Shown here: in pieces, positions 22,288-46,389 of the stretch | Layout of the letters: each line of letters starts with the position of its first letter | How positions within the stretch are numbered: position 1 is the first letter of the stretch | NCBI GenBank assembly: GCA_019057475.1 | Contig: DXJO01000028.1 | Span: 1-64,000, forward strand | Length of the DNA: 64,000 nt | Direction: 5' to 3' | Source of the DNA: Candidatus Thorarchaeota archaeon | Lineage (GTDB): Archaea > Asgardarchaeota > Thorarchaeia > Thorarchaeales > Thorarchaeaceae | Notes under the pieces: model-generated | The model's input: only the letters and a program-made list of their open reading frames with translations | The model's database searches: none | Told to the model about the DNA's origin: nothing | Made by a program: the position numbers and the translations under genes

Positions 22288-24105
22288 TCATTCTCGGGTT
22301 TGACCTCGAAGTCGGGCGTTGTATCTCGCTATTGCTTCCGGCCCTGTTCTGCCGAATCTCTTATCAAGTTCATCCTTGCCTATCCTGATTATCGATGGCC
22401 GGCCATGGCAGCAGTTGTACCTGCTCTTGGTTCTGTTGAGCTCGGTGAGCAATGCTCTGATCTCATCAGCGCTGAGATATTGTCCTGCACGGATGGCGGA
22501 GTGACATGCAGTAAGCTTGACCAGCTCATCCATGAATTGCTCCTTTGCGCTCTTGATGCCAACCTCCATGATGCGGTCCACGAGGGCGATAAGCTCATTC
22601 TCTGATGCTCGTCTTCCAAGAACCTCTGGCAATGTGGAAACTAGAACCTCGTTTCCTCCGAAGTGGCTTATTGTATATCCAAGCTCGCCAAGCCTTTCCT
22701 TCAGCCCGAGGATGGCTTCAGCATCCTTGGGTCCAAGGCGCAGCACAATGGGTTGTAGCAGCTCTTGTACCACTACTCGATTTGAGTTAACCTCCTCTCT
22801 AAGCTTCTCGTAGATTATGCGCTCATGCGCAGCGTGTTGGTCAACGAGAATCAGCCCGTCATCTGTGGTGAGAACTATGTAGAGCTTATTGACTTGCCCC
22901 AGGATCCGGAATGTACCGCCAAGAGTCTCAAGGTCAATCCTCTCGTCACCCAATCCCTTAGATTCTTCTAGTGCAAGTTGCTCGAGCAAGCCCGATCGAC
23001 GAGGGGTCGCTGCATGTTCCTCTGCGGGTAGCATCGTACGTGAGGACTCGAGACCCTCTCCAATAGCTGACGCAACCTCTACAAATTCCTCAAGCGACTG
23101 TGTGACGTCAGGTAACTTCACATCAGCAAGCGCATTCTTCACAGCATCCCTGACGACTTCTGTTACACTGTCGATATCCTGTATCCGGACTTCCCTCTTC
23201 GTTGGATGGACATTTGCATCCACGCGGGCGATGTCCACACCTATGTCGATTGCACAGATTGGGAATCGCCCCTTCATCAGCAAGGTTGAGTAGGCTGTTT
23301 CCACTGCGTTGCCGAGTTTGCTGTCCTCGATTGGCCTTTTACGAACAGAGAAGTACTCACGAGTGCGATTTCCTCTGGACATCGGCGGCCTAGCTATGAA
23401 CCCCGAAACCGTAACTCCCTGATGAGTCAGTGCAACATCAACTAAGCTTTCAGCAATATCTGGTCCCCACAGCGAAAGCACCCGGGTTTCTGCAATCTGG
23501 CCCGGAGGGCAATCTATGATGACCTTGTTGTCCTTGGTGAGTCGGAAACCCACATCGTTTCTGATGATTGCGTGCTTCATTGTGGTTTCAAGAATTCGTT
23601 GACTCTCAACCTTTGGAGTGGAGAGATATTTTCTTCGAGCTGGAACTTTCTCGAATAAGCCAGTAACTTCTACAGTTGTGCCCTGTGGCCTGGAGGCATC
23701 CGTTTGTGCCGGGATTTCGCCAGCTCTCGACACGAGTCGGGTCCCGGTTTTCTCATCCTCATGACGCGTTGTGATGGCAAGGTCAGCCACGGCCGCAATG
23801 CTTGCTAGAGCCTCTCCTCTGAATCCGTAGGTCAGGATTGCGTTAATGTCCTCTCGTCGACTGATCTTACTGGTGGAGTGCCTTAGCGTGCAAATCGGAC
23901 AATCCTCCTTGAGGATTCCTGAGCCGTTGTCAGAGATGATAATCGACTCCATGCCTCCCTCGGAAACCCGGATATCGATGTTTGTAGCGTTGGCATCTAG
24001 TGCGTTCTCTATAAGTTCCTTAACAATGGATGCGGGATTCTCGATAACCTCGCCAGCTGAGATGAGGGAAACGAGATCATCAGCTAGAATCTGGATTCTG
24101 CCCAT
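22288..24105 (-). CDS. mutL: DNA mismatch repair protein MutL (endonuclease type)
   Basis: 605 aa, full length. GHKL ATPase N-terminus: IQILADDLVSLISAGEVIEN, ELIENALDAN (Mg-binding Glu/Asn), ISDNGSGI, RHSTSKISRREDI and YGFRGEALASI. The C-terminal dimerisation domain keeps the endonuclease metal motif DQHAAHERIIYE (D-Q-H-A-x2-E-x4-E), an ACHSAIRAG block and CCHGRP. It therefore nicks DNA itself, and works with MutS encoded ~3 kb away on the same strand. Start ATG follows GAGGTGATTCG, 9 bp after the stop of the amidohydrolase. MutS/MutL pairs are patchy in archaea and are thought to come from bacteria. Confidence 0.95.
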   Translation of the reverse strand: MGRIQILADDLVSLISAGEVIENPASIVKELIENALDANATNIDIRVSEGGMESIIISDNGSGILKEDCPICTLRHSTSKISRREDINAILTYGFRGEALASIAAVADLAITTRHEDEKTGTRLVSRAGEIPAQTDASRPQGTTVEVTGLFEKVPARRKYLSTPKVESQRILETTMKHAIIRNDVGFRLTKDNKVIIDCPPGQIAETRVLSLWGPDIAESLVDVALTHQGVTVSGFIARPPMSRGNRTREYFSVRKRPIEDSKLGNAVETAYSTLLMKGRFPICAIDIGVDIARVDANVHPTKREVRIQDIDSVTEVVRDAVKNALADVKLPDVTQSLEEFVEVASAIGEGLESSRTMLPAEEHAATPRRSGLLEQLALEESKGLGDERIDLETLGGTFRILGQVNKLYIVLTTDDGLILVDQHAAHERIIYEKLREEVNSNRVVVQELLQPIVLRLGPKDAEAILGLKERLGELGYTISHFGGNEVLVSTLPEVLGRRASENELIALVDRIMEVGIKSAKEQFMDELVKLTACHSAIRAGQYLSADEIRALLTELNRTKSRYNCCHGRPSIIRIGKDELDKRFGRTGPEAIARYNARLRGQTRE

Positions 24106-27221: not shown

Positions 27222-29825
27222 TCATTTCTCTCTTCGCTTGATCTTGTCCTGCATCTCTTTTAGCTCGTTGAGTGCATCGAGGGGTGTGGTTCTCTCTAGT
27301 TCCATATGCTTTATCTGATCAACAATAGGGTCATCGATTGTAAGGGCTTCAAGAGACGTCTGCAGGGTTTCTACGGGTTCATCAGGTACATCCCCGAGGT
27401 CAACGATATTCTCCTTCTCGAGCCTAATCAAGAGCTGTTTAGCCCTCTTGACAACTGCGTCGGGCACTCCTGCAAGGGAGGCGACGTGCACACCGTAGGA
27501 CTTGTCAGTTCCTCCTGGAACAACCTTATGCAGAAAGACAATCGTGTTTCCGGATTCCTTGGCTAAGGTGTGGACGTTCTTGACGCCATGATACATGCTT
27601 GCCATTGATGTAAGGTGATGGAAGTGCGTAGCGAACAATGTTCGGGTTCTCATCAGAACAATCTGTTCGGCTACGGCCCAAGCCAGCGCCATGCCATCGA
27701 AAGTCGACGTTCCTCTACCTATCTCGTCCAGAATGACAAGGCTTCGATCTGTAGCACTATTGAGGATATTCGCGGTTTCAATCATCTCCACCATGAAAGT
27801 GCTCTGTCTGGCTGTTAAGTCATCGAAAGCGCCGACCCTGGTGAATATTCTGTCAACCAGTCCTACCTCAGCTTCCTTAGCAGGGACGAAGGAGCCCATC
27901 TGGGCCATCAGTACGATCTGTGCTGCCTGTCGCATGTAGGTGCTCTTTCCTGCCATGTTCGGACCCGTTACAATGAGCAGAGTTGTGCCACCATCTCCAA
28001 TCTCGAGGTTGTTTGGTACAAACTCATTTCGTCCGAGGATGACCTCCAACACTGGATGTCTGCCGTCAACTATCTTGATCAACGTTCCATCGGTGACCAC
28101 AGGTCTTGTGTATCCTCTTGTAACCGCTACATCCGCTAAGGATACCAGAACATCTGCTGTTGCCACGGCTACTGAGTTTCTTCGGAGTGTATCTAGGGCG
28201 TCTTGCACCTTCTCTCGCAATTCCTCATAAATCTCGTACTCAAGCCGGTTTGTCTTCTCCTCTCCCGCAAGAACTGTGGTTTCTTTTTCTTTCAGGTTTG
28301 GAGTTATGAAGCGCTCCGCATTGGTCAGAGTCTGCTTTCTCGTGTACTCCTCAGGAATCTTGCTAATGTTTGGTTTCGTAACCTCTATGTAATAACCAAA
28401 GACTTTGTTGAACCCAACCTTGAGTGTCTTGATGCCTGTCCGGCGTCGTTCTCTAACCTGAAGGGAAGCAATCCAATTCTTGTCCTCGGAGATAGAACTA
28501 GTGAGCTTGTCAAGTTCCTTGCTGTAGCCCTCCCGAATCATTCTTCCCTCTTTCACTGACACAGGCGGTTCGTCCACGATTGCATTGTCAAGGGTTTCTC
28601 GCAGTTCTGTCAGAAGGTCGATGGCCTTTCCAGCAGCTACAAGCATCTCAGCTCCGCAGGCGCTCAATGCATCCTTTATCTGTGGAATTCTCCCCAACGC
28701 AGTCCGCAAGGAAACGAGGTCTCTGGCCCCAGCAACCCCAAATACAATCCTGCTTGTGATTCTCTCGAGGTCTCCCAGGTTCCTTAAGCTATCCGCCAAT
28801 CTTCTGCGGTTCAGGGCAGCACGTGCTAGCTCCTCCACTGCATCCAATCTTCTCTCTATCGCGGCACGTTCTCTTAGTGGCTGAAGCATCCATTGCTTGA
28901 GTCTTCTTTTCCCCATCGGCGTTAATGTTTTGGAGAGCACTGAGAGGAGTGTGCCCCTCGTGCTCCCGTCACGCGCATTCCGCACAAGTTCGAGGTTCCT
29001 CTGGGTCGTGCTATCCACCACCATGTGGGCGTCCACGGTGTATGCTCTCATGCCAGTGATAGTTACTGTATTGGTCTTATGCACGTCCTGAAGATATGCC
29101 ATCACTGCCCCGGCGGCACCCAATGCTACCTTCTTATTGCCCATGCCATAACCATCTAAAGTGGAAACTCGAAACTGCTCTGTCAATCGTCGTTCAGCAG
29201 ACCTTGCAGAGAAGTCTACGTCGTTTCTGAAGGTAAGATGCCTTCCAGGTTCCTCGAGCTTGATCCTAACGCTCTCGTTCTTCGAGGTAGAATCCGGCAG
29301 AAGGATCTCAGTGGGGCTAAGCCGCCCCAGTTCGTTCATTGTCCTCTCACTTGTGTAGTTCCCCTCGAACTCAGTAGCCATGAACTCCCCGGTTGAAACA
29401 TCAACCGCTGCCATGCCTATTCTATCCCCATGTTCAATCAGTGCAACGAGGTAATTATTTGCTGAATCTTCGAGCATCGAGGATTCGAGCACTGTTCCAG
29501 GTGTGACAACGCGGACCACATCTCTCTTGACAAGCCCCTTTGCTTGTGATGCATCTTCCACCTGATCAGCAATAGCAACGGTGTAGCCCGCCAATAATAG
29601 CTTCGCGATATAGCCGTCAACTGCATGGTGTGGCACCCCACACATCGGCCATTTGTCAACTCCTTCCCCTCGTGCAGTGAGTATGATGTCCAGCACAGGG
29701 CTCGCAGTCTTAGCGTCCTCATTGAACATCTCATAGAAGTCACCAAGTCTGAACATCATGATGCAGTCTGGATACTGTTTCTTCAACTGAAGGTACTGCC
29801 GCTGCATTGGGGTTGGTTTCTTCAC
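27222..29825 (-). CDS. mutS: DNA mismatch recognition ATPase MutS
   Basis: 867 aa from GTG 29825, which has GGGAGA upstream and gives VKKPTPMQRQYLQLKK; the longer TTG frame adds ten residues. Domain I has the mismatch-wedge motif FRLGDFYEMF (Phe-x-Glu). Core, lever and clamp domains follow. The ATPase carries Walker A GPNMAGKSTYM, a signature region STFMVEM, Walker B LVILDEIGRGTSTFDG and the TLFATHFHHL His-switch. MutS1-type length. Same strand as mutL, separated by three metabolic genes. Recruits MutL to mismatches. Confidence 0.95.
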   Translation of the reverse strand: MKKPTPMQRQYLQLKKQYPDCIMMFRLGDFYEMFNEDAKTASPVLDIILTARGEGVDKWPMCGVPHHAVDGYIAKLLLAGYTVAIADQVEDASQAKGLVKRDVVRVVTPGTVLESSMLEDSANNYLVALIEHGDRIGMAAVDVSTGEFMATEFEGNYTSERTMNELGRLSPTEILLPDSTSKNESVRIKLEEPGRHLTFRNDVDFSARSAERRLTEQFRVSTLDGYGMGNKKVALGAAGAVMAYLQDVHKTNTVTITGMRAYTVDAHMVVDSTTQRNLELVRNARDGSTRGTLLSVLSKTLTPMGKRRLKQWMLQPLRERAAIERRLDAVEELARAALNRRRLADSLRNLGDLERITSRIVFGVAGARDLVSLRTALGRIPQIKDALSACGAEMLVAAGKAIDLLTELRETLDNAIVDEPPVSVKEGRMIREGYSKELDKLTSSISEDKNWIASLQVRERRRTGIKTLKVGFNKVFGYYIEVTKPNISKIPEEYTRKQTLTNAERFITPNLKEKETTVLAGEEKTNRLEYEIYEELREKVQDALDTLRRNSVAVATADVLVSLADVAVTRGYTRPVVTDGTLIKIVDGRHPVLEVILGRNEFVPNNLEIGDGGTTLLIVTGPNMAGKSTYMRQAAQIVLMAQMGSFVPAKEAEVGLVDRIFTRVGAFDDLTARQSTFMVEMIETANILNSATDRSLVILDEIGRGTSTFDGMALAWAVAEQIVLMRTRTLFATHFHHLTSMASMYHGVKNVHTLAKESGNTIVFLHKVVPGGTDKSYGVHVASLAGVPDAVVKRAKQLLIRLEKENIVDLGDVPDEPVETLQTSLEALTIDDPIVDQIKHMELERTTPLDALNELKEMQDKIKRREK

Positions 29826-29930
29826 GGCTTCTCCCGCTCTACACGTCGCGCTCAAGGCAATCTCAATGATGCACGCAGTCTAGCATTACTTCCCACAAAT
29901 AGATTTCCTAAGAGCGAATGTCAGCAATCA

Positions 29931-33614: not shown

Positions 33615-33647
33615 TACTTGGCGAGCAGCAAGTGGTGGAAAATTGTA

Positions 33648-34175
33648 ATGGTCGTACGTAGGTCCACTTCCGATTTAGCTTTCCGTAACTGGGTTCTAGA
33701 GCAGCCTGAAGGAGAAACGCTGCTTAGGTGCTATCAGTGTGGACGATGCACCAGCGCTTGCCCAGTCGCAGCGATTGACAACTCATTCAATCCTCGACTG
33801 TTCCTTCAAAAGATCCTGCTTGCTGATGAGTCCTTGGCTGAGGAACAGCTAGTCTGGACTTGCTTGACCTGCGAGCAATGCGAGGTTAGATGTCCCGAGC
33901 ATGTCAAGATACCGCATCTGCTTATTCTGGCGAAAGTCAGGGGCCTTGTGGGAGGCAACATACCTCAGGCAGCTCTCGACAGGGCAAGGGCAATACTCGC
34001 TGGTGGACGCATCATTATGGTGAACGAATCTATGCTCAAGACCAGAGACAAGATGGGTCTCCCCGACCTTGGCCAGCCTCCAGTTGACCAAATCGCAAGT
34101 GTGCTTAAGGAAATTGGGCTTGCAAAGAAGTTGGAGAATGTGGAGTCAGTATATGGAGGTGGGAGCAATGAGTAA
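33648..34175 (+). CDS. hdrC: Heterodisulfide reductase subunit C-like ferredoxin
   Basis: 175 aa. ATG 33648 is chosen because GGTGG lies 11 bases upstream; the longer TTG frame at 33618 lacks support. Two CxxCxxCxxxC(P) motifs bind [4Fe-4S] clusters: CYQCGRCTSACP (Cys 28, 31, 34, 38) and CLTCEQCEVRCP (Cys 72, 75, 78, 82). The C-terminal ~90 residues are helical (VRGLVGGNIPQAALDRARAI). HdrC passes electrons between HdrA and HdrB. The last 8 bases overlap the start of hdrB. First gene of a six-gene operon. Confidence 0.92.
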   Translation: MVVRRSTSDLAFRNWVLEQPEGETLLRCYQCGRCTSACPVAAIDNSFNPRLFLQKILLADESLAEEQLVWTCLTCEQCEVRCPEHVKIPHLLILAKVRGLVGGNIPQAALDRARAILAGGRIIMVNESMLKTRDKMGLPDLGQPPVDQIASVLKEIGLAKKLENVESVYGGGSNE

Positions 34176-35070
34176 GATGAAGACTTACACTTACTTCCCC
34201 GGATGCATGGTCCCGTTTAGGCTTCCGCATTTCGAGTTGGCCGCACGAGCAGTGCTGAAGAAGCTCGACATAGAGTTGGAGGCGAACCCGGGACATGCCT
34301 GTTGTCCAGAACCCACGACGTTCACAGGAGTCGATTTCGAGGCTTGGATAACGCTCGCCGCTAGAAATGTCGCTGTTAGCGAAACTACTGGATTGGAAAC
34401 TCTTTCTCTCTGTAGTGGTTGTTTCCATACTTTGGCTGTTGCTAACCACATGATTCAGGAAGACGAAAATCTGAAGGGCAGAATCAATGAGCGGCTCAAA
34501 ACGGTCGGGCTGAAGGTGACTGGACGCTTAATTGTCAAGAATATCCTTCATGTTCTTCATGGGGACGTTGGGCTGGAACGAATAAAGAAGGAGATTACTC
34601 ATCCACTCACAGGATTAAAGTTCGCACCCCACTATGGATGCCATCTTGTGAGGCCGCTAGAAGCAACTCACATGGACGATGCTGAGCAACCAAAGTGGAT
34701 GGATGATTTAATAGAAGTCACAGGTGCCGAGGTGGCGGACTTCGAAGACAAGATGGCTTGCTGTGGGGCACCGATTATGCCTTCAGATGCAGACAAAGCC
34801 TTCACACTCACTGCGGACAGAATCGAGAAAATCCGAGCATCAGGCGCGGATGCTATCATAGTAGTTTGCCCGACTTGCTACACTCAGTTGGAAACGCAGC
34901 AGAAAAAGGCAACCGCAAAATTCGATCCGGAGTATAGCATCCCTGTGCTGTATCTGGGCGAGTTACTGGCCATATCGATGGGCATGAAGGACATGGTCAT
35001 ATCTAATGCAAGACGGTATCATCGTGTCAAAGTGGGGCCACTGCTTGAAAAAATCGGAGGTGCCGCATAG
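34168..35070 (+). CDS. hdrB: Heterodisulfide reductase subunit B
   Basis: 300 aa from ATG 34168, overlapping hdrC (ATGAGTAA). Two complete CCG domains: C13, C45-C46, C82-x2-C85 and C158, C198-C199, C234-x2-C237, which fit the CX31-39CCX35-36CxxC rule and can hold the two noncubane [4Fe-4S] clusters that reduce disulfides. So this is a catalytically competent HdrB, not a degenerate CCG protein. Substrate in a non-methanogen is unknown; CoM-S-S-CoB is possible only if those thiols are made. Followed directly by hdrA. Confidence 0.92.
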   Translation: MSKMKTYTYFPGCMVPFRLPHFELAARAVLKKLDIELEANPGHACCPEPTTFTGVDFEAWITLAARNVAVSETTGLETLSLCSGCFHTLAVANHMIQEDENLKGRINERLKTVGLKVTGRLIVKNILHVLHGDVGLERIKKEITHPLTGLKFAPHYGCHLVRPLEATHMDDAEQPKWMDDLIEVTGAEVADFEDKMACCGAPIMPSDADKAFTLTADRIEKIRASGADAIIVVCPTCYTQLETQQKKATAKFDPEYSIPVLYLGELLAISMGMKDMVISNARRYHRVKVGPLLEKIGGAA

Positions 35071-36336
35071 ATGACAAAGACTGTTGTTGTTATCGGAGCT
35101 GGTTTAGCTGGTATTCAAGTCACTCAGCAGCTCACTGACTTGGGTGTTACCGTTCATCTAATCGAAAAGGAGTCTATTATCGGCGGCCTCGCAACACACT
35201 TGGGGCGTGTCTTCCCCACAGGCGACTGTGCTCTTTGTCTAGATGCGTGTGAAGAGCTGTTCGACGGGCATCATCGACGGTGTCAGTACAGAAGTCTACT
35301 GACGTCGAAGAAGAATCTAAAATTATACACTCAGACGGAGATAAGGTCGATAACTGAAGTAGATGGAAAGTTCTCTCTTTCCATTAAATCGCATCCGCGC
35401 TACGTTCTTCTTGACCGATGTGTTGTATGCCTCGAGTGCATCAATGTATGCGACGTTGAAATCCCGGATGAATACGCAATTCGGGGCGGTACTAGAAAAG
35501 CAATCTATCGACCGATATCTCAAGGTGTTCCACTCGTTCCGCTTATTGACATGGACCACTGCACCCAGTGTGGCAAGTGTGTTGAAGTCTGTGGAGTCGA
35601 TGCGATTGACCTTGCAGAGAAAGCTAAGACCCGTACAATCAAAGCTGATGCTCTGATTCTAGCGACGGGCGTTGAGGAGAAGATACCTCTCAATTTGCCC
35701 GGCTATGCTTACAGTGAATCTGACGACATAATCACCCAAAGAGAACTAGCAAGGCTGATTGACCCAACTGGTGATACGGATGGTCAAGTAATCACATCAT
35801 CCGGAGATGCTGCAGCTAAGGTAACGATGATATTATGCGCTGGCAGCCGGGATTTGGAAGCCACTGAGTACTGCTCCCAAGCTTGTTGTACTTACAGCCT
35901 GAAGCACGCAAACATGCTGAGGGACAAGGAGATCGATGTGACAATATGCTACATGGATCTGCGCGTTCAGAAAGCAAGCAACCACTATCTGGACTTGGCA
36001 AGAGAGAAGGGCGTAAAATTCCTCAGAGGAAAGCCTGACCGGGTTGTTGTCAGGAACGGCAAGCCTACTACAATCGTTGAAGATACACAGACCCAGCAAC
36101 GGATGGAGATTGAATCTGACATAGTGGTTCTGGCATCCCCATTATCTCCACTTGCCAGTCAGAGTGAGGTTTTGGCCGATTTCCTGGGTGAATACGGGTT
36201 TGCGTTAAGAGTGGTCAAAGAAGGACGTGTCTATGCGTGTGGCACGGCCACAGGTCCTGAGGATATACCGACCAGTATTGCTGAGGCGAATGCCATTGCA
36301 CTGAGAGTGTATGCAGACTTGGAGGGTGGTCGTTAG
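35071..36336 (+). CDS. hdrA: Short HdrA-like flavoprotein
   Basis: 421 aa, shorter than the ~650-aa methanogen HdrA. Starts with the FAD dinucleotide motif VVVIGAGLAGIQV (GxGxxG at 9-14), then the HdrA Cys motif FPTGDCALCLDAC (Cys 53, 56, 60, 71), two ferredoxin motifs (Cys 117-127 and 164-174: CVVCLECINVC, CTQCGKCVEVC) and the second FAD-binding half with LCAGSRDLEATEYCSQACC. It lacks the N-terminal ferredoxin-like segment of full HdrA. FAD here would take part in splitting electrons. ATG directly follows the hdrB stop, so translation is coupled. Confidence 0.88.
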   Translation: MTKTVVVIGAGLAGIQVTQQLTDLGVTVHLIEKESIIGGLATHLGRVFPTGDCALCLDACEELFDGHHRRCQYRSLLTSKKNLKLYTQTEIRSITEVDGKFSLSIKSHPRYVLLDRCVVCLECINVCDVEIPDEYAIRGGTRKAIYRPISQGVPLVPLIDMDHCTQCGKCVEVCGVDAIDLAEKAKTRTIKADALILATGVEEKIPLNLPGYAYSESDDIITQRELARLIDPTGDTDGQVITSSGDAAAKVTMILCAGSRDLEATEYCSQACCTYSLKHANMLRDKEIDVTICYMDLRVQKASNHYLDLAREKGVKFLRGKPDRVVVRNGKPTTIVEDTQTQQRMEIESDIVVLASPLSPLASQSEVLADFLGEYGFALRVVKEGRVYACGTATGPEDIPTSIAEANAIALRVYADLEGGR

Positions 36337-38301
36337 ATGAAGAAGCTGTTTCTGTGTACCTGCAACAAGACACTCGATAAGAAGCTAGACTTTCTGCGCA
36401 TTGAGAAGGAGCTGAAGGGCGTCTTCGACAGTGTTCAGATTCACGACGCGCTGTGCCTGAAGGAAGGACTTGCCTTTTTGGAATCAGAAGTTTCCAATGA
36501 GGACAGCGTAGTTATTGGAGCCTGCACATCACAAATTATTGGCATGCCCATGTCTGAGAAACTGAAGACTGAGTCTGTTTCCTTTGTGCCTTTGAGAGAA
36601 CACGTGGCATGGGTTCACTCTAACGACTTGAAGGGCGCTTCAAACAAGGCTGTAGTGCTATTGTGTGATGCAGCAATCAGAGTTGACCACATGGATTCCC
36701 CAACGGTTGTGGAGAACCATATGGAGAAGGAGGTCCTAATTGTCGGTGGGGGCATGTGTGGCCTGAAGGTAGCTGCAGACCTTCTACACTTGGGCATTGA
36801 TGTGACAATTCTTGAGCCTTGTCCGTGGGATGATACGGCCTATGTTGAGGCTGGCCAATTCATGGCTGACAAAAATACACTCACGAAAATGGTCAAGGAG
36901 TTGGTATCTGCCACTGCATCCGCGACGACGATATGCTGTACCATAACCGGACTCGAGGGTCGGGCTGGGAAGTATGGCGTGTCCCTCGCGTGTCTTGATG
37001 GAAAAGTATCGACCATTGACTGTGGCTCGATTGTTATTGCGACCAATGTCGAGCAAAAGCCGCCGCCCATGGCAAAGAAGTTACTCTATGGCAAGTCCGA
37101 TCGAACGATCCTCCTCGGGAATCTTGCAACCCTCGTTGAAAAGCAAGGACCGAAGGACGTTAGGACAGTATTGGTAGCAGTTGACCCAACTCATCATCTC
37201 AGTGCTGTTGAGGGCGGTTATCTTCTTCGAGTTGTCACTGAGGCTGCGAAGAAGGGCAACACTGTCATTGTGGCACATTCAAACATAAGAACCGACGATG
37301 AGAACATTTACCGCGCCGCTCGAGAATCTGGTGTCATCTTTGTCAGAGGCACCTTGGAGAAGGCCAAAGATACCAAGGACGGAATGGTCTGCCGGCTGGA
37401 GAATACGCTGGAGTCGCAGATTAGAGAGTTTGTTGTTGATCTACTAGTACTTCAAACAATGACTCGGCCGAGAGGCGATACAGCTGAGCTCGCTAGAATA
37501 GCGGGGTTGAGTCTGGATGAAGATGGATTCATCACGACACGGTACTCGAAGAACAAGCCCGTCCAGACCTCCAAGAGAGGAATCTACATTGCTGGCAATG
37601 GCAAGATGCCAATGAGTATTGATGATGCGATAGCATCCGCCGGGAATGCGGCCCTCGAAGTATTCAAGGATATTCGAACCACCACTCGACGCAAAGGCTG
37701 GATTCCAATCATTGACGAGGAGCAATGTGATGTGTGTGAGGCGTGCATTGAGGCATGTCCGAATGACGCACTGAGACTTGTGGATGGCAAGGTAACTCAC
37801 ATTTCTCAGCATTGCGAGTTTTGTGGCATCTGCGTTTCGGTTTGTCCAACGCGGGCGATTGAGTTCCAATCTCACAGCAAGGAATCGTGGTTTGCCAGGC
37901 TCGAAGCTCTTGCAGAGAATCACAAAAAGATGGAGGGTGAGAAACCCTTCACATTCGTATACGCATGCAGTGAGTGCGCGAATGCATCGATAGACCTTGC
38001 TGGTTTCACCGGAAAGGGCTATCCTACCGGAACCTATGTGATTCAATTCCCGTGCGCGGGAATGGTTTCCCCAATAGAGATTCTGAAAGGGTTGGCGGTT
38101 GGCGCTGAACGCATTGTGGTTGCGCATTGTCCACCTGGCGGCTGTCATCATCAGACGGGAGATCATATGGCTGAGCTTGTTGTAAAATTCACACAGGACA
38201 TGTTGCGAAGCATAGGACAGGACCCTGAACGAGTAAAGGCCACGTATATGATTGCGGCGTTACCTAACAAGATGCAGGAGGAGGTGGCACACCGTGGATA
38301 A
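36337..38301 (+). CDS. HdrA-MvhD fusion protein
   Basis: 654 aa. Residues 1-~130 are the HdrA N-terminal module (CTCNKTLDKKLDF...), then a Rossmann FAD domain (LIVGGGMCGLKVAADLL). This domain lacks the central 'DCxxC' and CCxxxC cysteines of active HdrA, so the flavin site looks degenerate. Two ferredoxin motifs follow (CDVCEACIEACP ~463-475; CEFCGICVSVCP ~491-503). The last ~120 residues are an MvhD domain (FVYACSECANASIDLAGF; CAGMVSPIEILKGLAVGA; AHCPPGGCHHQTGDH), which in methanogens links hydrogenase to Hdr with a [2Fe-2S] cluster. The ATG directly abuts the previous stop; the end overlaps the next gene by 8 bases. Confidence 0.85.
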   Translation: MKKLFLCTCNKTLDKKLDFLRIEKELKGVFDSVQIHDALCLKEGLAFLESEVSNEDSVVIGACTSQIIGMPMSEKLKTESVSFVPLREHVAWVHSNDLKGASNKAVVLLCDAAIRVDHMDSPTVVENHMEKEVLIVGGGMCGLKVAADLLHLGIDVTILEPCPWDDTAYVEAGQFMADKNTLTKMVKELVSATASATTICCTITGLEGRAGKYGVSLACLDGKVSTIDCGSIVIATNVEQKPPPMAKKLLYGKSDRTILLGNLATLVEKQGPKDVRTVLVAVDPTHHLSAVEGGYLLRVVTEAAKKGNTVIVAHSNIRTDDENIYRAARESGVIFVRGTLEKAKDTKDGMVCRLENTLESQIREFVVDLLVLQTMTRPRGDTAELARIAGLSLDEDGFITTRYSKNKPVQTSKRGIYIAGNGKMPMSIDDAIASAGNAALEVFKDIRTTTRRKGWIPIIDEEQCDVCEACIEACPNDALRLVDGKVTHISQHCEFCGICVSVCPTRAIEFQSHSKESWFARLEALAENHKKMEGEKPFTFVYACSECANASIDLAGFTGKGYPTGTYVIQFPCAGMVSPIEILKGLAVGAERIVVAHCPPGGCHHQTGDHMAELVVKFTQDMLRSIGQDPERVKATYMIAALPNKMQEEVAHRG

Positions 38302-39208
38302 ACGTGACCAGCTCATCCAGAAGCTCCGGAACATCGCCGTAAAAACCCCTGAAAATGACGTCGAAGTGCCGGAGAAGGTTGAAGGCTTTGGAACCATCGA
38401 GTACGGCGCACAGACGTGTAGCGCCTGCAAGAAGTGCATCCTAGCCTGCGAGCCTGCCGCGTTGGACATGGACCCAACGATGAATCTTCCTGACTACTTG
38501 AAGGCTACAATTCCACACGACGGCTTCAGGTCCAAGAACCGAGAATCTCTCGTAACCCTCCTACAAGGACTTAGGGAAGAAGGCAATGTAGTGGCCATCT
38601 CGGTTCCTGATGGACTTCCTGGCTATGGTTCTATTGCATGGGCTGCAGATCGGTGCATTGCCTGCGACAAGTGCATTGAGGCTTGTCTTGAGGACTGTCT
38701 TACGTTGGAGAAGACGTACAAGCTACCAGAGATAATCGGCGAGGTGAAACCGCCTCCGTCAATCACCGTGAGTAAGGACTGGGAGCCATTCATACTTTGC
38801 TTTGTGTGTTGGGAGTGCTCGCATGCGGCGGCCGACTTAGCGGGTCTTATGCACTTGCACTATCCCACGAACATCAGAACTATTAGAATACCCTGTCTTG
38901 GCGCGGTCGAACCCATGCACATCATGACCGCATTGGAGAACGGAGTCGATGGAGTCTTGTTGACAGGTTGTCTCCTCTCAGAGTGTCACTATGGAGGAGA
39001 TAGCCCAAAGGCTGGCAATTTCATGCAGTACGACTTCGTAAAGTTCTGGATGGATGTTCTTGAAGAGATTGGCATGGGCGGCAGGATTCATATTGACTCC
39101 GCATCCGCGGCCATGGGCATTAAATTCGCTGATATCGTGAAGGAATTCACTGAGAAAATACAGAATCTGGGGCCCAGCCCGATTCGGGGAAAGCTGGAGG
39201 TGCGGTAG
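38294..39208 (+). CDS. Ferredoxin-MvhD electron-transfer protein
   Basis: 304 aa from GTG 38294; GGAGGAGGTGG directly upstream and the GTGGATAA overlap with the preceding stop decide this start over the longer ORF. Two [4Fe-4S] motifs: CSACKKCILACEP (Cys 42-52) and CIACDKCIEAC (Cys 121-131). The MvhD domain from ~160 has FILCFVCWECSHAAADLAGL, PCLGAVEPMHIMTALENGVD and GCLLSECHYGGDSPKAGN. It is a second MvhD in the same operon, so the complex could dock to two electron donors or form an asymmetric pair. No hydrogenase or formate dehydrogenase gene is in the window. Confidence 0.85.
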   Translation: MDKRDQLIQKLRNIAVKTPENDVEVPEKVEGFGTIEYGAQTCSACKKCILACEPAALDMDPTMNLPDYLKATIPHDGFRSKNRESLVTLLQGLREEGNVVAISVPDGLPGYGSIAWAADRCIACDKCIEACLEDCLTLEKTYKLPEIIGEVKPPPSITVSKDWEPFILCFVCWECSHAAADLAGLMHLHYPTNIRTIRIPCLGAVEPMHIMTALENGVDGVLLTGCLLSECHYGGDSPKAGNFMQYDFVKFWMDVLEEIGMGGRIHIDSASAAMGIKFADIVKEFTEKIQNLGPSPIRGKLEVR

Positions 39209-39209
39209 A

Positions 39210-42200
39210 ATGCCTAAGAAGAAAAAGACTGAAGATCGCATTGGTGTATTTGTTTGTAGCTGCGGGACAAACATTGGTGGAGTTATTGATGTCGATAAAC
39301 TTGCCAAAGAGTTCGAGGACTATCCAGGCGTTGCGTTATCGGCCTGGAACATGTTCACGTGCTCAAAAGAGGGGCAGGTCCGAATTGCAGAAACCATCGA
39401 GGAACAGAACCTTACAGGCGTTGTAGTAGCATCGTGCACGCCGAAGCTTCACGAGGAACTATTCAGGGACATCTTGGAAGAGAAGGGTCTCAATAGGTTT
39501 AGACTAGCACAGGCGAACCTCAGAGAGCACAACACATGGGTTCATGATGACGAACCCGAGAAAGCCTACGAAATAGCTTATGACCTGATTTCAGGAGCAA
39601 TCGAGAGAGCCAAGCTGCTAGAGGACATAGGATTCGAGGAGTATCCAGTTGAAACGAGCGTGCTTGTTGTTGGTGCTGGCGTTTCCGGAATTCAAACAGC
39701 ATTGGATCTCGCTGACAAGGACATCAAAGTTCATCTAATCGAGCGCAATGTTGCTATCGGCGGCTATATGCCCAAGTTGGAGAAGACATTCCCCACCCTC
39801 GATTGTTCCATGTGCATCCTTTCACCAAAACTGAGCGCTGTTGACAGGAGCAAGAATATCGACATACACACATGCACTGAAATCATCGACGTGGAGCGGG
39901 ACTATGGCAACTTCAAAGTCAAACTGCGAACGCGTCCTCGTTACATAGACCTTGAGAAATGCAATGCCTGTGGAGATTGCGTGGAGGTCTGTCCAGTACT
40001 TACCCCCAATGATCATGACCTTGGCATGTCATTGCGAAAAGCAACGTACAAGCCGTATCCCCAAGCAGTCCCCGGTGCCTTCGCAATCGAAAAGCTGGGG
40101 CACGCCGCGTGCAAGATATCCTGTCCTGCACATGTGAGTTGTCAAGCATTTATCACGCTTACACGTGAAGGCACGTACGATAAGGCTCTCAGTCTCGTGA
40201 GAGAAGCAATACCGTTCCCCGGCTCGTTGGGACGTGTATGTCCAGCTTTCTGTGAAGACCAGTGCGAGAGAGGAACACACGACAAGAGCGTGAGCATCAG
40301 AAACGTTCACCGATTCCTCCACGATTATGAGCTTGAAACCGGACCTGTTGAGTCTGTTGAACCAGCAATAGACAAGGAGGAGCAAGTAGCGGTAGTCGGT
40401 GGTGGACCCGCAGGGATTGCATGTGCTCTATACCTTGCCAGACTTGGATATCCAGTGACGGTCTTCGAAGAAAAGAAGGAGGCGGGTGGCTTGCTCAGAT
40501 GGGGCATTCCTGAACATCGTCTACCTCGGGATATCCTCCGATCAGAAATTGCTTTCGTAGAACAGCACGGAGTCAAGATTGTTACCGGAACTCGGGTTGA
40601 TTCCATTGAACAGTTGAAGAAGCAGGGTTACAAAGCTGTGTTCCTCGGAACTGGTGCGCCTGTAAGTTCACAACTGAGACTGACTGGTGAAAACGCGAAA
40701 GGCGTTCATCACGCACTCGACTTCCTTTATCGCGTTAATAGTGGTAAGAAGGTCCAGCTTGGAAAGCATGTCGCCATCATAGGAGGTGGCAACTCTGCGG
40801 TTGACTCGGCAAGGGTCGCTTTGCGCCTTGGAGCGGACACAGTGACAATTGTCTATCGAAGGTCAAGGACAGAGATGCCGGCCATCCAGAGCGAGATAGA
40901 TGATGCAGTGAAAGAGGGCGTGAAACTCAAACTGCTTACTAACCCCGTTGAGGTCTTAGTGTCCAATGGTGCAGTATTCGGCTTGAAGTGCATCAAGATG
41001 AAGCTGGGAGAACCCGACGATTCAGGAAGAAGGCGTCCCATTCCAATCCCCGGTTCAGAGTTTGATATTGAGGTTGACGACATGATCGTCGCCATTGGCC
41101 AGAAGGTGGGGCCTGACGGTATACACTCCGGGCTCGAATTGACACGTTGGGGTACTGTCGATGTGGATCCTCTCACAATGCAGACAAGCATGGATGACGT
41201 GTTTGCGGGTGGGGACCTTGTGACTGGTCCAGCTCTCGCCGTGGAGGCGGTTGGTGCGGGGAATGAAGCGGCGGAGTCAATTCATAGGTACCTCCGCAGT
41301 CTTGACCTTCGTGAAGGCAGGCCATTTGTCCTGCCTCAAGCGCCCCCGCCAGATGTTGCTCCTGATGCACTCCCTGGTGGTTCACGAGCCAGGATGAAGA
41401 AATTGTCTGCAAAGAAGAGAGCAACCAATTTTGACGAAGTGGAGCTTGGTTTCACTGAGAAAATTGCAGTCAAGGAATCTGAGCGTTGTCTTGGTTGTGC
41501 AATCTGTTGCGAGTGCAAGCTATGCGTCGAGGCTTGTCAAAAGGATGCCATCGACCATTACATGAAGGAAGAGGTGTTTGAACTGACTGTTGGCGCGATA
41601 GTTGCTGCCACAGGGTTCCAAGAGATAAGTATGGAAGAGCTGCCAGAATACGGTGGCGGGAAGTTCCAAAGGGTAATTACAGCTGGTCAGTACGGTCGGC
41701 TGTTGAGCCTTGTCGGTCCGACGGCCGGGAAGATAATGATCCCTCCCGACTATACTGAAACGCCAAAGCGCATTGCTTACATTAACTGCGCAGGGTCTCG
41801 TGACGAGGGTTGCAGACCATGGTGCTGCAACTTTGGATGCATGTACACACTTAGGCACGCAGAGATGACCAACCGTGAATATGGCGACTCGATGGAGCAA
41901 TGGATAATCTATCATGAGCTCCGTGCAGGAGGAAAGGAGTACGAGCAATTTTACAGGAGAGTAAGAGAGCACGGTATTCGTTTTGTGCGAGGCTTCCCCA
42001 GCGATTTCACTGAGGAAAAGGACGGTACAATTAGCTTCTCAATCTTCGACCAAGGATCGGGCCAGCTCCTTCGGTTGAACTTTGATCTCGTTGTGCTCAC
42101 AATGGCGGTTGATCCGTCGGAGGGAACTGCAGAACTTGCACACATACTGGGAGTTGACAGAAGCGAAGGTGGCTTCATGAAGGAGCTACATCCGAAACTC

Positions 42201-42614
42201 GAGCCAGTGAACACAAAGGCTCGCGGAGTGTACATTGCAGGCACGTGTCAAAGTCCGAAGGATATCCCGTCTTGCGTTTCGGATGCAAAGGCTGCAGCAA
42301 GCGCAGCAGCATCACATGTGCTCAAGGGCATAGTAAGAGTGCAGATGGACAAGGCGATGATCGATGAGGACATCTGTATTGGGTGCGGGCTCTGTGAGAA
42401 GGTATGTCCGTTCGATGCTATCACAATGAAGGATCGAGATGAAGGGCCACAGCTTGCAGAGGTCAACTCGCTTCTATGCACAGGTTGTGGTAAGTGTCAG
42501 GTGGTCTGCCCCACTGGAGCAGCAAAGCGCAAGCATTACACGACTGAGCAAATCGAAGCAGAGGTTCTTGGTCTGATAGCGTCTCACAGGAGGCAGCAGG
42601 CAGCGCGACACTAG
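39210..42614 (+). CDS. HdrA with an inserted GltD/NfnB-like NAD(P)H oxidoreductase module
   Basis: 1134 aa. Residues 1-~290 are HdrA: N-terminal CSCGTNIGG module, FAD motif VLVVGAGVSGIQT (~151), FPTLDCSMCILSPK (~195) and CNACGDCVEVCP (~252), then the HdrA 'RKATYKPYPQAVP' segment. Instead of the next ferredoxin, a ~410-residue GltD/NfnB-type module follows (~293-700): CKISCPAHVSCQAF, CPAFCEDQCERG cluster ligands, FAD motif VVGGGPAGIACALYLARLG, NAD(P) motif IIGGGNSAVDSARVALRLG and the closing FAGGDLVTGPA. HdrA then resumes with CLGCAICCECKLCVEAC, INCAGSRDEGCRPWCC, and two C-terminal [4Fe-4S] motifs (CIGCGLCEKVCP, CTGCGKCQVVCP). Two FADs of HdrA/GltD type plus an NAD(P) site in one chain point to electron bifurcation with NAD(P)H. 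Last gene of the hdr operon. Confidence 0.9.
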   Translation: MPKKKKTEDRIGVFVCSCGTNIGGVIDVDKLAKEFEDYPGVALSAWNMFTCSKEGQVRIAETIEEQNLTGVVVASCTPKLHEELFRDILEEKGLNRFRLAQANLREHNTWVHDDEPEKAYEIAYDLISGAIERAKLLEDIGFEEYPVETSVLVVGAGVSGIQTALDLADKDIKVHLIERNVAIGGYMPKLEKTFPTLDCSMCILSPKLSAVDRSKNIDIHTCTEIIDVERDYGNFKVKLRTRPRYIDLEKCNACGDCVEVCPVLTPNDHDLGMSLRKATYKPYPQAVPGAFAIEKLGHAACKISCPAHVSCQAFITLTREGTYDKALSLVREAIPFPGSLGRVCPAFCEDQCERGTHDKSVSIRNVHRFLHDYELETGPVESVEPAIDKEEQVAVVGGGPAGIACALYLARLGYPVTVFEEKKEAGGLLRWGIPEHRLPRDILRSEIAFVEQHGVKIVTGTRVDSIEQLKKQGYKAVFLGTGAPVSSQLRLTGENAKGVHHALDFLYRVNSGKKVQLGKHVAIIGGGNSAVDSARVALRLGADTVTIVYRRSRTEMPAIQSEIDDAVKEGVKLKLLTNPVEVLVSNGAVFGLKCIKMKLGEPDDSGRRRPIPIPGSEFDIEVDDMIVAIGQKVGPDGIHSGLELTRWGTVDVDPLTMQTSMDDVFAGGDLVTGPALAVEAVGAGNEAAESIHRYLRSLDLREGRPFVLPQAPPPDVAPDALPGGSRARMKKLSAKKRATNFDEVELGFTEKIAVKESERCLGCAICCECKLCVEACQKDAIDHYMKEEVFELTVGAIVAATGFQEISMEELPEYGGGKFQRVITAGQYGRLLSLVGPTAGKIMIPPDYTETPKRIAYINCAGSRDEGCRPWCCNFGCMYTLRHAEMTNREYGDSMEQWIIYHELRAGGKEYEQFYRRVREHGIRFVRGFPSDFTEEKDGTISFSIFDQGSGQLLRLNFDLVVLTMAVDPSEGTAELAHILGVDRSEGGFMKELHPKLEPVNTKARGVYIAGTCQSPKDIPSCVSDAKAAASAAASHVLKGIVRVQMDKAMIDEDICIGCGLCEKVCPFDAITMKDRDEGPQLAEVNSLLCTGCGKCQVVCPTGAAKRKHYTTEQIEAEVLGLIASHRRQQAARH

Positions 42615-45027: not shown

Positions 45028-46389
45028 ATGGTTGACCAAATCGCAATTATTGGATGTGGTGCCGCTGGCGCAACTGTCGCAATGCAGGCAAGGAAGTTCA
45101 ATCGAAAAGTAGGAATCTCGATTATTAACAAGGAACCGTACTCTCAGTATTCCCGATGTGGCCTTCCTTACACGATTTCTGGAAAGGTAAAGACATTTGA
45201 CGATCTTATCCTCATGCCGGTTGACAGCTGGTCCGGACTCAGGATTGACGCCAAGTTTGGCACAACAGTTACAAAGATTGACCACAAAGCCAAGACATTG
45301 TTCTACGAGGGCCCAGAGGGTTTGGGGAGCTGTGAATATGATGCTCTGATCTTCGCAACTGGTGCACGCAACGCTGACCCTCCGATAAAGGGTCTCGACA
45401 AGAAGCGCGTGTACGGCCTGAGAACTCTGGACGACGCCAAAGCCCTTGCCGCAGAAGTTGGCAAAACAAAGAATGCCGTCATCATTGGCGGTGGCCTTGT
45501 AGGTATGGAGGCTGCGGAAGCATTCCATGAGAAAGGCGTGAACGTGACCGTCGTTGAATTCCTACCCAACATCCTTCTGGCGATGGTTGACCCCGATATG
45601 GCAAGTATCGTAGAGGACCACTGCAAAGAGCACGGTCTGGAGATACTCACCAATACTGCCGCCCAAGAGATTACTGGTGATGAAACGCCCCGCACTGTAT
45701 TAGTTCAAAATAGAGAAACTCAGGAAATAAAGGAGATACCTGCCGACATAGTCGTTGTATCGACTGGTGTGAGAGCTGTCACCGATCTTGCAGCATCAAT
45801 CGGTGCGGAGATTGGCACGACAAGGGGCATCAAGACCAACGAGCGAATGATGACGAACTTGAAGGACGTCTACGCCGTCGGCGACTGTTCCGAGAATGTT
45901 GGATTCATGACGAGAAAACCCGTTCCCGGTGGTCTCGGAACTGTTGCAGTGAGACAGGCACGTGTTGCAGGAATCAATGCTGCAGGTGGTGACGTGAAGT
46001 TCCCTGGAATTGTTGGAGCTAAGGTCACCAAACTGTTTGGGCTTGAAGTTGCTAGCACAGGCTTCATTGAATACACTGCTAAAATCTTCGAAGTAGAAAT
46101 CGTCAAGGGTTCTGTTAAAGGGAGCACCAAGCCCCATTACTATGCTGGTGGGAAAGATATCAAGGTCAAGACGTTCTATGAGAAGGGCACAGGGAAGCTC
46201 GTGGGCGGCCAGATTGTGGGTCTCGAAGACGCTGCGATGAGAATCAATGTGATTACGCTCGGAATTCAGCACAAGATAACTGCGGCTGACCTATTTAACA
46301 TGGAGAATTGCTACGCCCCTGCGATTTGCGACACATGGGATCCGCTGGTCACATCTGCAGAAGCGGCTCGACGCAGACTGAAGATCTGA
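45028..46389 (+). CDS. CoA-disulfide reductase / NADH oxidase-like flavoprotein
   Basis: 453 aa. Pyridine nucleotide-disulfide oxidoreductase layout: FAD motif IAIIGCGAAGATVAMQARKF, single redox Cys in QYSRCGLPYTISG (the CoADR/NOX-type active Cys near position 43), NAD(P) motif VIIGGGLVGMEAAEAFHEKG, second FAD motif VYAVGDCSE and a C-terminal dimerisation domain. Family activities are CoA-disulfide reduction, NAD(P)H oxidation to water or peroxide, or polysulfide reduction; they cannot be told apart here. GGAGTG precedes the ATG. Stand-alone. Confidence 0.85.
   Translation: MVDQIAIIGCGAAGATVAMQARKFNRKVGISIINKEPYSQYSRCGLPYTISGKVKTFDDLILMPVDSWSGLRIDAKFGTTVTKIDHKAKTLFYEGPEGLGSCEYDALIFATGARNADPPIKGLDKKRVYGLRTLDDAKALAAEVGKTKNAVIIGGGLVGMEAAEAFHEKGVNVTVVEFLPNILLAMVDPDMASIVEDHCKEHGLEILTNTAAQEITGDETPRTVLVQNRETQEIKEIPADIVVVSTGVRAVTDLAASIGAEIGTTRGIKTNERMMTNLKDVYAVGDCSENVGFMTRKPVPGGLGTVAVRQARVAGINAAGGDVKFPGIVGAKVTKLFGLEVASTGFIEYTAKIFEVEIVKGSVKGSTKPHYYAGGKDIKVKTFYEKGTGKLVGGQIVGLEDAAMRINVITLGIQHKITAADLFNMENCYAPAICDTWDPLVTSAEAARRRLKI

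Follow-up and report, generated by a model that had tools for sequence, protein, structure and literature searches.

A type III HdrA of Thorarchaeota with a built-in GltD module: a candidate NADP(H) port in an apparently mosaic protein

Background

The insertion of a GltD/NfnB-like domain into HdrA, a subunit of the heterodisulfide reductase (Hdr) complex, was described in ANME-1 as HdrA9/10/11 (PMC9012536, 2022), and the architecture was later named 'type III HdrA', for which NADH and two insertions were suggested (PMC12054007, 2025). In these proteins a domain of ~450–500 amino acids (aa) lies within the inner ferredoxin domain; in class A10 the N- and C-terminal HdrA domains are both present, and NAD(P)H is the proposed carrier. 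The same features were found in a gene of Candidatus Thorarchaeota (assembly GCA_019057475.1), here called hdrA-gltD, which lies in a 64,000-nt stretch of contig DXJO01000028.1 that is referred to in its entirety as 'the window'. It differs from the ANME-1 and class A10 proteins in its Asgard host, in a genome where methyl-coenzyme M reductase (MCR) was not found, in the replacement of K409 and E356, in an NADP-type motif, in its operon (hdrC-hdrB-hdrA-hdrA/mvhD-mvhD), and in having a known uninserted orthologue.

Three further systems provide points of comparison. StnC of the StnABC transhydrogenase (8oh5_C, PMC10482914) has a GltD with flavin adenine dinucleotide (FAD), an NADPH site, two [4Fe-4S] clusters and the same order of ends, and its GltD feeds a linear cluster chain inside a larger protein, as is proposed for the window protein; experiments showed that its GltD FAD is a non-bifurcating entry site for NADPH (PMC10482914). 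However, that GltD sits on a NuoG-like scaffold with HydBC-like StnAB, whereas the scaffold in the window is HdrA, with HdrBC and MvhD. In NfnB (4ylf_B, 5jca_L) the sites for FAD, NADP(H) and clusters are homologous, but the RCLxC motif is N-terminal, whereas in the window insert it is at the C-terminal end; NfnB bifurcates with NfnA, which is absent from the window operon. The HdrA of HdrABC-MvhADG (5odc, 8rvu) shares with the window protein the complete HdrA frame, together with the cluster motifs and the FAD domain that surround the insert, but is without GltD and has K409 and E356; the window protein is the opposite on both counts.

The words 'Asgard' and 'Thorarchae-' do not occur in PMC12054007, while HdrA fusions have been reported in Thorarchaeota with no mention of glutamate synthase (PMC11237513). 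No description of an Asgard type III HdrA was found in the open-licence literature searched, although earlier reports elsewhere are possible. The architecture itself is already known; what is added here is its Asgard distribution, the uninserted orthologue, the exchange of the cassette, the NADP-type site and the loss of the bifurcation pair.

Results

The product of hdrA-gltD is best interpreted as an NADP(H) port that would supply an HdrBC disulfide-reductase complex through a linear iron-sulphur (Fe-S) chain and whose own HdrA flavin probably does not bifurcate; this reading is given a probability of roughly 0.6. The gene is an uninterrupted open reading frame (ORF), with an ATG at 39210 and a stop at 42614, encoding 1134 aa. 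An earlier reading of the DNA (the original prediction) had placed a GltD/NfnB module of ~410 residues inside HdrA, and a domain search confirmed the module and set its borders: the NCBIfam HdrA models produced two separate matches (aa 10–308 and ~756/765–1124), flanking a single match to the GltD-like model PRK12771 (aa 299–796). Among PDB sequences, HdrA matched at aa 4–295 and 765–1120, and NfnB, StnC and DPD at aa ~298–697/777. The predicted length was too short, since the net gain over the 676-aa uninserted orthologue was 458 residues (aa ~297–765). Lying in the inner 2x[4Fe-4S] ferredoxin domain, the insert separates the first cysteine motif (C251–C261) from the second (C766/767–C776), and alignments showed that every HdrA cluster and FAD motif is kept. 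GltD thus lies within the inner ferredoxin domain of an HdrA core, which defines type III HdrA, and both the N-terminal cluster domain and the C-terminal ferredoxin are retained, as in class A10. The two flavin sites and one NAD(P) site that had been predicted for a single 1134-aa chain are indicated by the motifs GAGVSG, GGGPAG and GGGNSA, the last being the second Rossmann motif of the insert. The parts of the gene, all on the + strand, were as follows.

39210..42614, +, hdrA-gltD, 1134-aa type III HdrA (ORF list, domain and PDB matches)
39210..40097, +, HdrA N-terminal part, aa 1–296 (domain and PDB matches, motif alignment)
within 39210..40097, +, cluster domain C16, C18, C51, C76; FAD motif GAGVSG, aa 155–160; C199/C202
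within 39210..40097, +, first half of the inner ferredoxin domain, C251, C254, C257, C261
40098..41504, +, inserted GltD/StnC-like module, aa ~297–765, missing in the syntenic orthologue (domain matches, alignments)
40110..40124, +, C301 and C305, two putative ligands of the GltD entry [4Fe-4S] (from NfnB/StnC)
40239..40310, +, C344, C348, C352 and H367, [4Fe-4S] beside the GltD FAD (alignment with StnC)
40398..40415, +, GGGPAG, aa 397–402, FAD motif of the insert (alignment)
40782..40868, +, GGGNSA, aa 525–530, and YRRSR, aa 549–553, nucleotide site of apparent NADP type (comparison with NfnB and StnC)
41481..41498, +, ERCLGC (C760, C763), exit end of the insert (alignment with NfnB)
41505..42614, +, HdrA resumed: second half of the inner ferredoxin domain, C766/767, C769, C772, C776; flavin domain (domain and PDB matches)
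41694..41696, +, G829, aligned to E356 of M. thermolithotrophicus HdrA (PDB match and alignment)
41853..41855, +, R882, aligned to K409 of M. thermolithotrophicus HdrA (PDB match and alignment)
within 41505..42614, +, C-terminal 2x[4Fe-4S] ferredoxin, C1056–C1100 (motif alignment)

The insert aligned with StnC, NfnABC and NfnB, and carries cluster cysteines at C301, C305, C344, C348, C352, C760 and C763. The N-terminal segment of NfnB (R-x-x-x-F-x-E-V-x-L-G ... RCLxC) aligned with the C-terminal end of the insert; therefore, C301/C305 and C760/C763, from its two ends, should form one cluster, which would bring both ends together at the HdrA ferredoxin domain. The order of the insert ends and GltD clusters is that of StnC. 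Counting residues from the printed alignment, H367 corresponded to K170 of StnC, the fourth ligand of the cluster, and R437 to R239 of StnC and R201 of NfnB; the roles of K170 and R239 are given in PMC10482914. By its motifs, then, the insert resembles the Nfn and Stn modules in having putative sites for FAD, for NADP(H) and for two clusters.

The motifs GGGNSA and YRRSR are shared with StnC and NfnB, which use NADP(H), and the nucleotide site looks to be of the NADP type, contrary to the published prediction of NAD. The latter was deduced from a GXGXXG motif in type III HdrA (PMC12054007), as opposed to GXGXXA for NADP; in the window protein the NAD(P) fold carries GGGNSA, and the only GXGXXG in the insert is the FAD motif. 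Both GGGNSA and YRRSR are intact, in keeping with the NAD(P) site of the original prediction, and a dead site was rejected on the strength of the motifs. Where the window protein has YRR, other Asgard type III proteins (the 'E group' described below, L105, L106, L110 and L112) carry CLE(T/S)R, and therefore both nucleotide preferences may exist.

An AlphaFold model of the protein, built with 51 sequences, had a pLDDT of 89.1 and a pTM of 0.77. Foldseek matched HdrA 8rvu_A across the insert, with a TM of 0.91 by the length of that target (643 residues). A match to 9bov_A spanned 480 columns at 2.6 Å.

The full-length gene was also present, with operon order unchanged, in L044 (97% identity), L039/L120 (80%) and L040/L067 (79%). 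The ratio of non-synonymous to synonymous substitution (dN/dS) against L044 was 0.03–0.07 in each segment, including both junctions, across which there is purifying selection. A mis-join of two genes or an assembly chimera, which would have undone the predicted architecture, was ruled out because several independent Thorarchaeota assemblies share the gene and its operon, and because the junctions are under purifying selection. When 228 Asgard genomes were examined with a probe across the first junction, junction-spanning rows being counted by hand, HdrA-GltD was identified in ~55 genomes, including 35 of the 47 from the window's family. That type III HdrA occurs commonly among Asgard archaea adds to the published record. 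Named relatives were Candidatus Thorarchaeota; the contig scan for relatives returned Thorarchaeota and one Eubacterium GltD, and type III proteins of ANME-1 and Bathyarchaeota were compared through the descriptions in the respective papers.

The source genome contained two more HdrA-GltD copies on contig C29, 51% and 50% identical to the window protein. The second of these lacks the N-terminal domain, as in class A9, and is flanked on both sides by genes resembling the [NiFe]-hydrogenase large subunit (named from sequence). Both copies belong to a large Hdr-hydrogenase cluster (L070 and L071), in which several genes of the hdrB, hdrC and mvhD types also occur, as do genes resembling the hydrogenase large subunit.

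For comparisons of residues and trees, window-type proteins were labelled SI, their syntenic uninserted orthologues SU, and the long and short GltD-HdrA paralogues PF and PS respectively. E356 and K409 of M. thermolithotrophicus HdrA, the Lys/Glu pair found at the bifurcating FAD of bifurcating HdrABC, are replaced by G829 and R882 in the window protein, a pattern common to all SI (4/4) and SU (6/6) proteins. Among the other full-length type III proteins aligned, Lys was present in 37/37 and Glu in all but one (L107), and both other HdrA-GltD copies of the source genome keep the pair. K409 and E356 are present in all type III sequences of PMC12054007, where they are cited as the mark of a bifurcating HdrA. 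Judged by these residues, the HdrA FAD of the window clade is probably non-bifurcating.

The SU loci (L047, L049, L052, L055) have the operon order of the window, i.e., hdrC, hdrB, hdrA (421–422 aa), hdrA/mvhD (654 aa) and mvhD, and end with an hdrA without the insert, followed by an extra hdrC-hdrB not present in the window. Identity between the window and SU proteins was 60–92% over aa 1–220 and from ~aa 801 onwards, falling to 42–59% beside the insert (aa ~240–300 and 761–800), while identity to PF and PS showed the opposite pattern along the protein. Sites that discriminate SU from PS gave 0 SU and 5 PS matches over aa 757–800, and 84 SU and 2 PS matches over aa 801–1040; the sequence switches from PS-like to SU-like at ~aa 800. 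A tree of the HdrA core (312 columns, with the insert and ferredoxin rim left out) joined SI to SU (support 100, starred) and scattered the remaining type III proteins over several HdrA lineages; forcing SI with PS was rejected (p-AU, approximately unbiased test, 8e-92). In the GltD tree, SI fell in a Thorarchaeal clade (100, starred) with PF, PS and some GltD proteins outside HdrA (L059–L061, L124), nearest to two PS modules (96, starred, or 94 in a second tree).

The core and GltD trees conflict, so that a single origin and vertical descent of all Thorarchaeal inserts was rejected; on these alignments and trees the cassette appears to have been exchanged between HdrA paralogues, making the window protein a mosaic. 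The E group (L062, L063, L069) is a clearer case of exchange than the window protein: its core belongs with PF (100, starred; p-AU 0.53 when so constrained), while its GltD grouped with another Asgard family, and constraining it with PF was rejected (p-AU 4e-47). Two further arrangements were observed. In L106:1943-7255, L110:2507-7819 and L112:2413-7821, an uninserted HdrA is followed in tandem by a GltD-inserted HdrA with a closely related core, which is another natural pair with and without the insert. In L060:4057-11000 (-), a relative with a window-type gene, an hdrB like the one that follows SU sits in another cluster, along with a pair of HdrA-like genes and a gene for a GltD protein of 972 aa.

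The genes preceding hdrA-gltD in its operon were identified as follows.

33618..34175, +, hdrC-like, two [4Fe-4S] motifs (domain search, motifs)
34153..35070, +, hdrB-like, two intact CCG (non-cubane cluster) motifs, start codon uncertain (domain search, motifs)
35071..36336, +, short HdrA, 421 aa, K409 equivalent kept, Ala at E356 (domain search, alignment)
36337..38301, +, 654-aa protein derived from HdrA and ending in an MvhD/FlpD domain, without the flavin-domain cluster motif (domain search, motifs)
38294..39208, +, MvhD/FlpD protein, two [4Fe-4S] motifs (by comparison with relatives, GTG at 38294 is the probable start; the ORF runs from 38252)

As in bifurcating HdrABC, the operon combines an HdrB with two CCG motifs and an HdrC with two [4Fe-4S] motifs. 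The 421-aa HdrA is a better candidate for bifurcation than the hdrA-gltD product, if the complex bifurcates. No NfnA/PyrK-like or StnAB-like partner gene was found among the proteins of the window operon, and MCR alpha was not found in the genome (96% complete); the disulfide substrate could be other than the heterodisulfide of coenzymes M and B (CoM-S-S-CoB). Downstream of the operon lies a gene for a coenzyme A (CoA)-disulfide reductase-like flavoprotein (45028-46389, +).

Other fused Hdr proteins were encountered. In another Asgard family, a chain of ~920 aa combines an HdrC-like dicluster ferredoxin, GltD and two CCG domains as in HdrB (L065:4952-7717, -, where the domains were checked; L066 and L073 were recognised just from protein length and the match to GltD), and is a possible direct NAD(P)H-to-HdrB enzyme, judging by its domains. 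L064:6982-11928 (+), and also L113 and L115, encode a 1648-aa protein comprising a short GltD-inserted HdrA, a second HdrA and a C-terminal MvhD. Selenocysteine at an in-frame TGA was considered for another HdrA of the genome and rejected; the codon seems to be a normal stop, beyond which lies an unrelated gene. Elsewhere in the window are full-length homologues of MutL (22288-24105, -) and MutS (27222-29855, -), i.e., bacterial-type mismatch repair in an Asgard genome.

Discussion

In a Thorarchaeal complex of the HdrABC/MvhD type, the hdrA-gltD product would serve as HdrA. The GltD of the StnC/PRK12771 kind that its inner ferredoxin domain houses would act as an NADP(H) port. If the sites hold their cofactors, a hydride from NADPH would pass to the GltD FAD, a plain entry flavin as in StnC, and single electrons would continue to the [4Fe-4S] of C344/C348/C352/H367, then to the cluster shared by the insert ends (C301, C305, C760, C763), to the two clusters of the HdrA inner ferredoxin domain, and so to the FAD and clusters of HdrA, to MvhD and to HdrBC. 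HdrB would reduce or form a disulfide, and the path could run in either direction. The coupling to disulfide chemistry proposed originally stands insofar as the module sits in a subunit of an Hdr complex; the disulfide chemistry itself belongs to the upstream HdrB, with its intact CCG motifs.

Several points weigh against this interpretation, and other functions must be considered. The preference for NADP is read from motifs, and the change from Lys to Arg leaves a positive charge that could still support bifurcation. Such an Arg standing in for Lys would suit a full bifurcating or confurcating enzyme, with NADPH or NADH as mid-potential donor and the HdrA FAD sending electrons both to HdrBC/disulfide and to a low-potential acceptor, as was proposed for type III HdrA of ANME-1 and Bathyarchaeota (PMC12054007, PMC9012536). 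No cluster or FAD motif of HdrA has been lost, and the pair is kept in the genome's other two copies; but both of the residues that PMC12054007 treats as discriminating are replaced in the window clade, and the insert occupies the ferredoxin-facing domain, so that we regard this as a minority possibility. That position also makes the predicted coupling to free ferredoxin doubtful, as PMC12054007 argues that ferredoxin is blocked. It is improbable that the GltD FAD itself bifurcates as in NfnAB, giving two bifurcation sites. Two sites were suggested for ANME-1, where inserts are 45% identical to NfnB (PMC9012536), and R437 is conserved at the position of NfnB R201; yet the same Arg occurs in StnC without a bifurcating FAD (PMC10482914), in structure the insert comes closest to StnC and the large subunits of NfnABC, and an NfnA/PyrK-like acceptor is missing from the operon. 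Least probable is a decayed or purely structural insert without NAD(P) chemistry: the FdhF part of StnC shows that inherited domains can turn structural, but here no FAD, nucleotide or cluster motif is damaged and dN/dS remains at 0.03–0.07 across the insert.

The exchange of the cassette must also be weighed against evidence of the opposite kind. The 13 PS modules are allowed as one clade (p-AU 0.31), and therefore the donor can be narrowed only to the Thorarchaeal GltD pool. A tree of the ferredoxin rim (90 columns) joins the window with SU (93/83, unstarred), and hence the left border may be placed anywhere in aa ~223–296. SI may have gained the insert, or the others may have lost it. The weak grouping of the rim, together with the GltD proteins outside HdrA in the Thorarchaeal clade, would fit the separate gain of a free GltD gene by this HdrA, without exchange between paralogues. 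We consider this unlikely, given that aa 757–800 match the GltD-bearing HdrAs and at no site the uninserted orthologue, up to the switch at ~aa 800, and that the window GltD is nearest to PS-type modules. The preferred interpretation is that the GltD-ferredoxin cassette was swapped between HdrA paralogues by recombination. The insertion had been singled out as unusual; the architecture is published, and the cassette, having apparently moved between paralogues, is not a one-off. A tentative generalization, to which we give somewhat less than even odds, is that the Asgard GltD-ferredoxin unit is an exchangeable cassette for NAD(P)H input, moved by homologous recombination between HdrA paralogues and converting successive Hdr complexes to another carrier; the window clade would then be a direct NADPH-disulfide oxidoreductase derived from a bifurcating scaffold, in an HdrA lineage without the bifurcation pair.

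Conclusion

A standing question in anaerobic energy metabolism is the switching of carriers by Hdr-type complexes. The window clade provides a test of the K409/E356 criterion in a protein of type III and suggests NADPH over NADH, while the SI and SU proteins, being mostly 60–92% alike outside the module, are a ready pair for testing the contribution of the insert. Asgard archaea bear on models of eukaryote origin, and this locus concerns how NADPH, ferredoxin and disulfides may be balanced there without MCR.

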